From assembly GCF_051014685.1 (NCBI RefSeq), contig NW_027479250.1, forward strand, positions 62,001-126,000: a stretch of 64,000 bases of DNA. The letters run 5' to 3'. This DNA comes from Ptiloglossa arizonensis (taxonomy: Eukaryota; Arthropoda; Insecta; Hymenoptera; Colletidae). Position 1 is the stretch's first letter; each line of letters begins with the position of its first letter. The notes under the pieces are model-generated. The model saw only the letters and a list, made by a program, of their open reading frames with translations. It did not search any database and was not told the origin of the DNA. This document shows, one piece after another, positions 5,100-18,523 of this stretch. The translations under genes were made by a program, and so were the position numbers.

Positions 5100-6260
5100 T
5101 ATAACACATAACGTATAATGTATAACGTATAATATAACGTATAACGTATAACGTATAACGTATAACGTATTACGTATACGTATAACGTATACGTATAACG
5201 TATAACGTAAACGTATACGTATAAGTATAACGTATATCGTATAACGTATAACGTATAACGTATAAACGTATAACGTATAACGTATACGTATAACGTATAA
5301 CGTATAACGTACAACGTTTAATCGTATAACGTCTAACAGTATAATCGTATAACGTATTAACGTATAAGCGTATAAGTATAACGTATAACGTATAACGTAT
5401 AACCGTATACGGATAACGTATAACGTAGTAACGTATGGCGTATAACGTATTACGTATAACGTTTAACGTATAACGTCCAACGTAAACGTATAACGTATAA
5501 GGTATAACGTATAACGTACAACGTTTAACGTATACCGTATAACGAATAACGTATAACGTATATCGCATGACGTATAACATATAACGTATAACGTATAACG
5601 TATAACGTACCACGTATAACGTATAACGTATATCCTATAACGCATAACGTATAACGCATAACGTATAACGTATAACGTATAACGTATAAACGTATAACGT
5701 ATAACGTATAACGTATAACGTATAACGTATAACGTACAACGTATAACGTATAACGTATATCCTATAACGCATAACGTATAACGTATAACGTATAACGTAT
5801 AACGTATAACGTATAACGTATAACGTATAACGTATAACGTATAAACGTATAACGTATAACGTATAACGTATAACGGTATAACGTATAAACGTATAACGTA
5901 TAACGTATAACGTATAACGTACAACGTTTAACGTATAACGTATAACGTAGAACGTATAACGTATAACGTATAACGTATAACGTATGACGTATAACGTATA
6001 ACGTACAACGTATAACGTAATAATGTATAACGTAGAACGTATAACGTACAACGTATAACGTATAACGTATAACGTACAACGTACAACGTATAACGTATAA
6101 GTATATCCTATAACGCATAACGTATAACGTATAACGTATAACGTATAACGTATAACGTATAACGTATAACGTATAACGTTATAACGTATAACGTATGTCG
6201 TATAACGTATTACGTATAACGTATAACGTATAACGTATAACGTATACGTATAATGTATAA
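5100..6260 (+). repeat. Indel-rich, register-broken satellite segment
   Basis: The monomer is the same but units of 5, 6 and 8 bp are frequent. They are densest at about 5,110-5,480 and scattered to about 6,245 (for example near 5,689, 5,875, 5,888, 6,019, 6,093, 6,179 and 6,243). The variant order from about 5.46 to 6.1 kb parallels a register-perfect paralogous stretch at about 9.18-9.8 kb. The sudden cluster of one-base indels suggests either a low-accuracy consensus patch in the assembly or a real local mutation burst; the sequence alone cannot decide. Confidence 0.8.
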
Positions 6261-17500: not shown

Positions 17501-17504
17501 AACG
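17501..17504 (+). repeat. Left target-site duplication (AACG)
   Basis: AACG directly before the left LTR is repeated directly after the right LTR at 18,520-18,523. The next base outward differs (C at 17,500, A at 18,519), so four is the maximum match. A 4-bp duplication fits an LTR-retrotransposon integrase. Deleting 1,019 bp (element plus one copy) joins AACGTAC to AACGTAT in perfect 7-bp register. Confidence 0.9.
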
Positions 17505-17588
17505 TGTGGCGGCACTACCCACGTTTGCCACCAGAGGGAAACTCACCATCAACCGTTTCCCGCAAGTTCCCGTACCTGCTCCGATCGC

Positions 17589-17596
17589 TATATATA
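17589..17596 (+). promoter_or_regulatory. TATA-box-like sequence in 5' LTR
   Basis: TATATATA lies 34 bp upstream of the hammerhead 5' strand. Transcription starting about 25-35 bp downstream would begin close to the ribozyme, so that nearly all of it would be included in the RNA. The position is plausible for an LTR promoter but rests on the short motif only. Confidence 0.45.
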
Positions 17597-17625
17597 CGAC
17601 CTCTTACCGATCTTCCAATGTCCCG

Positions 17626-17692
17626 GCGTATAAGGCAGGGCCTGCTAGGATGCCTTACTGACGAGTCCACTAGCAGGCCCGGGATGAAACGC
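17626..17692 (+). ncRNA. Type III hammerhead ribozyme in 5' LTR
   Basis: Self-cleaving RNA with stem III open. Stem III is GCGU/ACGC (17,626-17,629 with 17,689-17,692). The cleavage triplet is GUA, with cut predicted after A17,630. Stem I is UAAGGCA/UGCCUUA (17,631-17,637 with 17,651-17,657), seven perfect pairs. The core CUGACGA is at 17,658-17,664. Stem II is GUCC/GGAU (17,665-17,668 with 17,682-17,685). GAAA is at 17,686-17,689. All conserved core positions are present. Departures from the commonest form are A rather than C at the cleavage site (allowed by the GUH rule) and a G-U wobble next to the core in stem II. Loops 1 and 2, 13 nt each, contain 11-nt complementary stretches. The very short stem III is typical of plant retrozymes and may favour cleavage in dimeric RNA. 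Confidence 0.87.
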
Positions 17693-17758
17693 TTATCCCC
17701 ACTTCCTTATATTTCCGTTCACTCCTTCCTCACATACTTTAATTTACCGCCGCCAAAG

Positions 17759-17769
17759 TGGTGACCCCG
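17759..17769 (+). other. Candidate tRNA primer-binding site
   Basis: TGGTGACCCCG begins one base after the 5' LTR. TGG pairs with the universal CCA end of tRNA, which is the expected position and form for a reverse-transcription primer site. It does not match the initiator-Met site (TGGTATCAGAGC) used by most plant LTR elements and retrozymes. I cannot assign the tRNA from the sequence alone. Confidence 0.65.
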
Positions 17770-18256
17770 TCTAAGAACAACGCAACCTTCTGGACAACAG
17801 CACAGCAGCAGTACAGGTGCAGCACAAGACGATGGAAGGAACGCAACGTAAAGGCCGATTTTTCGTAAATCCCCCTCTCCGAGGGTTGACTCCTCGACCT
17901 GCCAGCGACGACACGAACGCTATACTCCCGGCTAACCATCAGGATGAACCCCAGGAGGACAGCAGGCAGCTTGTCGACATTATTCACCGACCACACCGAT
18001 GCGTTTCATAAATACTGGTACGCGCACGCATCAACGTCGGACAACAAGCGAAAAACGCGGCTTGAGCAAACGATGCTCGCCACGCGTATTCCGCAATCGA
18101 CAGCAGCTGGGCCTTACTACGAAAAAGAAGCATTCTTCCCTTCCACCGCTCTGGACAACCTCCTCCTGTGCCTGTTGTGCCAAACCGAACTACGGAACAA
18201 ATACCTACGCCACTGGGACATCAGGACGGAACTTCAAAGTATCGTTTACCACTGGC

Positions 18257-18263
18257 AAGGGGG
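18257..18263 (+). other. Candidate polypurine tract
   Basis: AAGGGGG lies 3 bp (TTA) before the 3' LTR, where a plus-strand primer is expected. The 3-bp gap is slightly unusual because tracts normally abut the LTR. Confidence 0.6.
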
Positions 18264-18350
18264 TTATGTGGCGGCACTACCCACGTTTGCCACCAGAGGG
18301 AAACTCACCATCAACCGTTTCCCGCAAGTTCCCGTACCTGCTCCGATCGC

Positions 18351-18358
18351 TATATATA
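18351..18358 (+). promoter_or_regulatory. TATA-box-like sequence in 3' LTR
   Basis: TATATATA, the exact counterpart of the 5' LTR motif. If active here it would drive transcription out of the element into the satellite. Confidence 0.4.
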
Positions 18359-18387
18359 CGACCTCTTACCGATCTTCCAATGTCCCG

Positions 18388-18454
18388 GCGTATAAGGCAG
18401 GGCCTGCTAGGATGCCTTACTGACGAGTCCACTAGCAGGCCCGGGATGAAACGC
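18388..18454 (+). ncRNA. Type III hammerhead ribozyme in 3' LTR
   Basis: Base-for-base copy of the 5' LTR hammerhead, with predicted cleavage after A18,392. Together with the cut after 17,630 it would free an RNA spanning 17,631-18,392, 762 nt, with the 5'-hydroxyl and 2',3'-cyclic phosphate ends that hammerheads leave and that plant tRNA ligase can join into a circle. Confidence 0.87.
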
Positions 18455-18519
18455 TTATCCCCACTTCCTTATATTTCCGTTCACTCCTTCCTCACATACT
18501 TTAATTTAGCGCCGCCAAA

Positions 18520-18523
18520 AACG
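18520..18523 (+). repeat. Right target-site duplication (AACG)
   Basis: Pairs with 17,501-17,504. The satellite resumes here as AACGTAT units. Comparing this locus with its uninserted relative near 19.99 kb gives an offset of 2,720 bp, which becomes 1,701 (243 units) after subtracting 1,019 bp, confirming the insertion length. Confidence 0.9.

Follow-up and report, generated by a model that had tools for sequence, protein, structure and literature searches.

We report a 1,015-bp element that, judged by its anatomy, is an LTR retrozyme in an animal genome. It lies in a 64,000-nucleotide stretch of DNA (the window), which is part of contig C880; the genome searched comprised 998.7 Mb in 2016 contigs. 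The best explanation of the element and its relatives, to which we assign a probability of roughly 0.7, is that of an LTR retrozyme whose ribozyme-cut units would be circularised and whose cDNA would be begun on one RNA and finished around a circular RNA. On a broader proposition we are evenly divided. It holds that LTR retrozymes exist in animals and that the DNA of this family records such copying, in which cDNA synthesis begins on one RNA and is finished by reading around a circular one, the two LTRs of a newly made copy have U3 but not U5 in common, the ordinary second strand transfer goes unused, and divergence in the 3' half of the LTR is unrelated to age.

Anatomy of the element

Apart from the element, the window consists of a satellite with the 7-bp tandem repeat ACGTATA, as an earlier note on this DNA had recognised in calling the element the only non-satellite DNA in 64 kb. 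The same satellite also fills 8 kb from the start of contig C2 (L052), and its register is interrupted repeatedly at about 5130-6030 of the window by single-base insertions and deletions. The element has two LTRs of 253 bp, identical at 252 of 253 positions as had been stated, with the sole mismatch at LTR position 243. The LTR start, TGTGGCGGC, and end, GCCGCCAAA, form an inverted repeat with one mismatch, and other copies share these termini. AACG is present on both flanks (Table 1). Since the satellite itself presents AACG at 7-bp intervals, a duplication seen only here would be weak proof; the 4-bp target duplication claimed earlier was confirmed by the family copies, which sit in unrelated DNA with clear target duplications.

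Table 1. Features of the element and its flanks in window coordinates
Feature	Position	Strand	Basis and remarks
Left target duplication, AACG	17501..17504		Family rule: 4 bp in 52/57 full copies, 5 bp in 4/57, none in 1
5' LTR, 253 bp, TGTGGCGGC...GCCGCCAAA	17505..17757	+	Termini same in other copies
TATATATA, likely promoter TATA box	17589..17596	+	Sequence; promoter role putative; about 34-41 bp upstream of predicted cleavage site
Type III hammerhead, 5' LTR	17623..17695	+	Rfam RF00008, 22.8 bits, below gathering; descriptor; conservation; cleavage expected after A17630
Ribozyme loop 1 (17638-17650) and loop 2 (17669-17681)	17638..17681	+	11 contiguous complementary nt
Hypervariable G-poor LTR end, LTR 191-253	17695..17757	+	Many copies have unequal LTRs in this part
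Internal region, 509 bp, no recognised protein	17758..18266	+	Pfam search, frame inspection
PBS, TGGTGACCCCG	17759..17769	+	Sequence; one base after 5' LTR; unvaried in 61 internal regions, many chosen by TGGTGACCCCG
Polypurine tract (PPT), GGCAAGGGGG	18254..18263	+	Sequence; then TTA before 3' LTR; last 20 internal bases unvaried in 61 internal regions
3' LTR	18267..18519	+	LTR comparison
Type III hammerhead, 3' LTR	18385..18457	+	Rfam match and descriptor; cleavage expected after A18392
Predicted self-cleaved RNA unit, 762 nt, 53% G+C	17631..18392	+	Spacing of predicted cleavage sites
Right target duplication, AACG	18520..18523		LTR/flank comparison

The PBS reads as what we take to be the complement of the tRNA-Trp 3' end. 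In a family copy on contig C6, the match to a PBS of this type is extended to GTGGTGACCCCGACGTG, and a genome search found an extended PBS of the tRNA-Trp type at 8 places, 7 of which were not recognised as members of the family. The putative TATA box occupies LTR position 84, 85, or 87 in 121 of 121 LTRs, a position that would put the transcript start close to the ribozyme. A pol III promoter was also sought. Because tRNA and 5S matches were lacking up to an E of 10 and neither an A nor a B box was present, a Helenus/TRIMp3-type pol III promoter in the LTR was rejected; likewise, no tRNA was found in L054, a locus holding two element copies.

In agreement with the earlier statement that the element encodes no proteins, Pfam searches of five open frames gave no family above the cut-off (one weak match had an E of 0.17), and a protein-coding reading was rejected on this ground. 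Stop-free stretches of 177 and 195 codons exist in the element. In 15 of the 52 single-unit copies the longest frame stays open over 209 codons, but it crosses the ribozyme, and the peptide marks sought in it are missing in 12 of the 52. Variable sites by codon phase number 13, 8, and 14 of 126, 126, and 125 sites, respectively, and give no clear coding signal. With two LTRs, a PBS, a PPT, and no protein, the element has the features of a TRIM, its 1015 bp lying just above the 1000-bp limit quoted in PMC10886601.

Hammerhead motifs in both LTRs

All core motifs of a hammerhead are present in both LTRs, namely stem III GCGU/ACGC with GAA preceding the stem III strand, stem I UAAGGCA/UGCCUUA, the core CUGACGA, and stem II GUCC/GGAU. 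Each LTR is hit on the + strand by the Rfam model RF00008 (Hammerhead_3), with 22.8 bits and an E of 0.048. This falls short of the model's gathering score, 48.5, and no Rfam match in the window attains its gathering threshold; the low score goes with the long loops. Our own type III descriptor hit exactly two sites, both on the + strand of the element, and none on its - strand or in the rest of the window. On 299,188 bases of fetched loci it matched in the element family only. A chance hammerhead was rejected, since none of 3000 dinucleotide shuffles of the element matched the descriptor. The full type III hammerhead that the earlier note had placed in each LTR is thus upheld by the core motifs and the descriptor but not by the Rfam threshold. 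The predicted cleavage sites lie 762 nt apart, as had been predicted for the self-cleaved unit.

Loops 1 and 2 have 13 nt each, and 11 contiguous nt are mutually complementary, an extent reached by 0 of 300,000 shuffles of the two loops. Both loop strings are intact in 119 of 121 LTRs, and the five motif strings checked are all intact in 110 of 121. Because a simple two-loop hairpin is predicted to be more stable (-30.3 kcal/mol) than the hammerhead without loop-loop pairing (-12.2 kcal/mol), cleavage activity of the predicted hammerhead is not certain. The loop-loop duplex alone is predicted at -25.6 kcal/mol, and the 11-nt complementarity may support or block cleavage.

The ribozyme stems hardly vary among copies. 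Over the 121 aligned LTRs, the number of variants per site was 0.59 inside the hammerhead vs 5.26 elsewhere, the latter figure being inflated by up to 2 through two truncated LTRs. The excess variation is located in LTR 191-253, where G accounts for 6.7% of bases vs 23% in the rest of the LTR; LTR 1-118 is also well conserved, and the hammerhead is the most conserved stretch in the second half of the LTR. An older, diverged relative of the family on contig C1 near 34053818 (L028; 75-84% identity) has a changed core, with both loop strings and their complementarity kept.

Copies in the genome

Other copies of the element, which the earlier note had proposed as a check together with solo LTRs, are numerous. 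The exact 20-bp LTR-PBS junction occurs in 255 copies in the genome (0 for a reversed-pattern control), and there are 635 exact LTR starts. The listing of starts is complete for contigs C1 and C2, where 29 of 91 lack a partner at one unit's distance; they represent either solo LTRs or copies in which the start of the other LTR is altered. Removal of 5 duplicates from 69 chained hits left 64 for examination, of which 57 were full copies and 7 were not. The full copies comprise 52 single units, three two-unit arrays, one three-unit array, and the rearranged copy L037, which was left out of most LTR-pair statistics and included in the count of 64 adjacent pairs given below. The target duplication is 4 bp in 52 of the 57 and 5 bp in 4, with none in L037. 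The same borders in 57 full copies, 56 of them with a 4- or 5-bp duplication, bear out, together with the anatomy and the ribozyme motif, the initial description of a retrozyme-like element with paired hammerheads. The copies are not a random sample: they consist of the 8 best matches, PBS-selected copies taken in contig order on C1-C4, and five chosen loci.

Ten single LTR starts in the same orientation lie within about 0.5 Mb at C2:3848580-4361139, which may be a duplicated or amplified region. A further array of the family is located on C7 near 20262123-20262881. Copy pairs with identical flanks, direct or inverted, on C101 (L006, L007), C285 (L047), and C9 (L043, L044) point to segmental duplications. 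Exact searches gave 0 matches for a 22-mer in viral_contigs and 0 for a 28-mer in genome_contigs, neither of which holds insect genomes as such.

Host

The genome points to an animal host, most likely an aculeate hymenopteran. Mitochondrial-type COX1 insertions occur on many contigs, including C101 (of 631 candidates, 88 were scored). TGA is read as a residue in them (TGA=W), and one has an open frame of 517 aa whether table 4 or table 5 is used. Its best matches among solved structures (PDB) are COX1 chains of 513/514 residues, at 736-743 bits vs 640 for the next. We take these chains to be vertebrate, that is, of animal type, and the next-best match is presumably from a plant. Several insertions lie within single contigs, five of them on C969; others were seen on C8, C101, and C139 (L039-L042). 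At the ends of C1 (L051, L053), a telomere-like 11-bp repeat, present as TTAGGTCTGGG and TTAGGTCCGGG, lies on one side and a different long tandem repeat on the other. TTAGGTCTGGG is given for many aculeate Hymenoptera (PMC10632776). Both the COX1 with TGA=W and the telomere motif are at odds with a plant host, which is a descriptive trait of the published LTR retrozymes considered. Contamination of one contig was rejected, because copies are found on many contigs and C101 holds both element copies and a mitochondrial-type COX1 insertion.

Unequal LTR pairs

Ordinary LTR replication copies one U3-R-U5 into both LTRs, which are identical at birth as a result. When the LTRs of the 52 single-unit copies were compared over positions 127-253, 19 copies had no difference, 9 had 1-3, and 24 had at least 4; the last are called heterotypic here, and they make up 24 of 45 single-unit copies when L001-L008 are left out. 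Over LTR 1-126, there were 10 differences in 6552 compared bases (0.15%). The two LTRs of heterotypic copies share 1-126 but carry different family haplotypes in 127-253. Their mean difference in LTR 1-126 is 0.125 within a copy vs 1.88 between copies, an agreement matched by 0 of 20,000 permutations. In LTR 127-253 it is 12.2 within vs 11.9 between copies, an equality that is partly built in, since the copies were chosen for unequal right halves, which is not so for the left-half agreement; over all 52 copies the values are 5.9 and 12.3. The left-half result was stable in 12 of 12 settings, combining boundaries of 100, 126, 150, and 180 with thresholds of 4, 7, and 10, at P 0.0002 throughout, which is the floor of 5000 permutations. 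Moreover, the two LTRs match at four informative U3 sites in all 24 heterotypic copies (chance 0.53 per copy), and in each of the 24 the 127-253 part of either LTR has a closer counterpart in some other copy than in the partner LTR. The target duplication of these copies is 4 bp in 22 and 5 bp in the other 2.

Counted over 64 adjacent LTR pairs, L037 included, 28 pairs differ by at least 4 events in LTR 191-253, and these 28 hold 293 events in that stretch vs 23 in LTR 1-190. The switch point can be placed only between LTR 85 and about 188, as the intervening sites hardly vary. Left U5 and the first internal quarter were weakly linked in 31 heterotypic units (r 0.26, P 0.0025), the corresponding values for right U5 were r 0.13 and P 0.06, and linkage of U5 with the internal region was not significant in finer bins over single units. 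The internal region is mosaic, with a Mantel r of 0.24 between its first and last quarters.

The tandem arrays show related patterns. In L043, LTR1 equals LTR2, and LTR3 is unequal only in 127-253. In both L046 and L066, LTR1 equals LTR3 in 1-126 and LTR2 is different (at 4 and 2 sites, respectively), with internal regions that are unlike within the array. In the trimer L045, LTR1 and LTR3 show no difference, nor do internal regions 1 and 3, and the last LTR and LTR2 are also unequal at two U3 sites.

How nearly identical two LTRs are is not a safe clock in this family, because causes other than age often make the 3' half of the LTR unequal within a copy. Recent activity, proposed earlier from the near-identical LTRs of the window copy, is supported by the few differences in LTR 1-126 but loses near-identity as its measure.

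Proposed replication through a circular RNA

In the pathway that we propose, a transcript would start at the LTR promoter just before the ribozyme, and the two ribozymes would cut it to a 762-nt unit consisting of R/U5 of the 5' LTR, the internal region, and U3 of the 3' LTR. Units would then be ligated into circles, sometimes two different units per circle. Inside a particle formed by an autonomous LTR element (probably a Gypsy-type one), a tRNA (tRNA-Trp) would prime cDNA at the PBS, and the reverse transcriptase would copy R/U5 of one RNA up to its cleavage-site end, jump to a circular RNA through the nearly invariant ribozyme stretch, and read around the circle past the PBS to the start of U3. 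The product, with a left LTR made of the circle's U3 and U5 and a right LTR made of the circle's U3 and the U5 of the starting RNA, would be integrated with a 4-bp duplication.

Equal U3 together with unequal R/U5 would mean that the left LTR was made by a first strand extended beyond the PBS along a template that has an R/U5 of its own, and a one-LTR circle supplies such a template with the same U3. If two RNAs are packaged, homotypic and heterotypic copies should be about equally frequent; 28 copies with 0-3 differences and 24 with at least 4 were seen. A circular template is, on the DNA evidence, the best account of the unequal LTR pairs and would explain three of the four tandem arrays. 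The pattern of L046 and L066 is as expected of a two-unit circle, and the trimer L045 appears to fit only in part: it needs a further switch to account for the two U3 sites at which LTR2 and the last LTR are unlike.

The same DNA might instead belong to an ordinary TRIM that replicates canonically from uncleaved linear RNA and bears a hammerhead without using it for replication. The size, PBS, PPT, and short duplications fit, TRIMs are known in Hymenoptera (PMC3532108, PMC10886601), and LTR 127-253 is free of differences in 19 of 52 single-unit copies. Canonical transfer gives identical LTRs, however, yet 24 of 52 carry two haplotypes in one LTR half only, U3 differs at just 0.15% of bases, and the ribozyme is the most conserved stretch of the second LTR half, all of which makes this reading quite improbable. 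LTRs identical at birth might also have been altered later by gene conversion or crossing-over with other copies, in keeping with 3'-half haplotypes common to several copies, with the mosaic internal region, and with a heterotypic pattern that was read in the retrozyme family alone, that is, in one LTR family of the genome. Such a history has a poor chance in our estimate: crossing-over would break matching flanks, yet a 4- or 5-bp duplication is retained by all 24 heterotypic single-unit copies, and conversion should hit U3 too, where the four-site haplotype matches in every one of them.

Equal U3 with different U5 would likewise result, with no need of a circle, if strong-stop DNA jumped to a second linear RNA and the reverse transcriptase copied through the second PBS into its R/U5, the mismatched left LTR being repaired either way. 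We regard this as unlikely, for by itself it makes no tandem arrays, of which 4 independent ones were examined, and it requires R at the 3' end of the RNA, which ribozyme cutting would remove, an argument already made for plant retrozymes (PMC4918200). L046 and L066, dimeric arrays that resemble copies of two-unit circles, might suggest that heteromeric RNA from end-to-end joining of cut units explains the single-unit copies too; it predicts unlike U3 in their two LTRs, however, and U3 agrees, so that we hold this to be highly improbable. Replication around a circular RNA remains our preferred reading.

Implications

It has been discussed that viroids and similar circular RNAs may stem from retrozymes. 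Should insects also harbour LTR retrozymes, the division in the literature considered here into LTR elements with type III hammerheads in plants and non-LTR elements with type I hammerheads in animals fails, and horizontal transfer versus independent invention becomes a testable question. In plants, circular RNA was proposed as the most plausible template of reverse transcription because the cut linear RNA is without the R repeat (PMC4918200). The pattern of shared U3 and unshared U5 would offer a test of that proposal from genome sequence only. It could be applied to plant retrozymes, in which LTR mismatches, up to 32 in those of N. benthamiana, have been interpreted as age (PMC9695139). If our reading is true, every such genome holds a readable record of circular-RNA reverse transcription.

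Comparison with known systems

Plant LTR retrozymes are described with type III hammerheads, a tRNA-Met PBS, and 4-bp duplications (PMC4918200; commentary PMC4918198). The present element shares with them (Cervera et al. 2016, PMC4918200) a type III hammerhead in both LTRs, here on the same strand, a non-coding centre with PBS and PPT, the 4-bp duplication, a unit of about 700-770 nt, single-LTR copies, and a G+C content near 53-55%. It differs in its animal host, in a PBS (TGGTGACCCCG) that is tRNA-Trp-like and not of the tRNA-Met type, in 13-nt loops with 11-nt Watson-Crick complementarity, in its tandem copies of one or more units, and in LTR pairs with shared U3 and unshared U5, of which we found no such description in the available text of PMC4918200.

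The retrozymes reported from animals are non-LTR elements with type I hammerheads (PMC7229834; PMC7761336), and PMC7761336 mentions insect elements with type III hammerheads as in preparation. By title and start of abstract, no LTR retrozyme from an animal was recognised among open-licence PMC papers. With metazoan non-LTR retrozymes (Cervera and de la Pena 2020, PMC7229834) the element has in common an animal genome, a hammerhead, the lack of a protein, and a presumed circular RNA. Those elements differ from it in their type I hammerheads, short tandem repeats with units of about 150-450 bp, absence of LTR, PBS, and PPT, and longer duplications when present. The insect TRIMs PbTRIM of ants (PMC3532108) and Helenus (PMC10886601) are likewise short hymenopteran LTR elements with PBS, PPT, and 4-bp duplications, and some Helenus elements and one insect Gypsy use tRNA-Trp, like the PBS seen here (PMC10886601). 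They differ in that the available text of both papers mentions no ribozyme in the LTRs; PbTRIM further differs in its tRNA-Leu PBS and LTRs of 152-184 bp (PMC3532108).

The atypical type III hammerheads of HDV-like agents, termites, and dipterans (PMC7936874) resemble ours in Watson-Crick pairing between the loops of helices I and II and in their occurrence in insects. They differ in that the pairing is about 4 nt beside an extra hairpin and the termite genomic copies are isolated motifs; according to that source, none of its hammerhead architecture was found in hymenopterans. The minimal type I hammerhead and encoded protein that characterise Penelope-like elements are both lacking in the present element. 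We know of no PBS/PPT LTR anatomy in Penelope-like elements or Terminons. Like the present family, these are animal retroelements with hammerheads in terminal repeats, and they differ in being autonomous and in having hammerheads of the minimal type I (PMC7761336). Plant LTR retrozymes, hymenopteran TRIMs, and type III hammerheads with loop pairing in insects are already known (PMC4918200, PMC10886601, PMC7936874); what appears to be new here is that an animal carries an LTR retrozyme, one whose loops 1 and 2 show an unusual complementarity over 11 nt.
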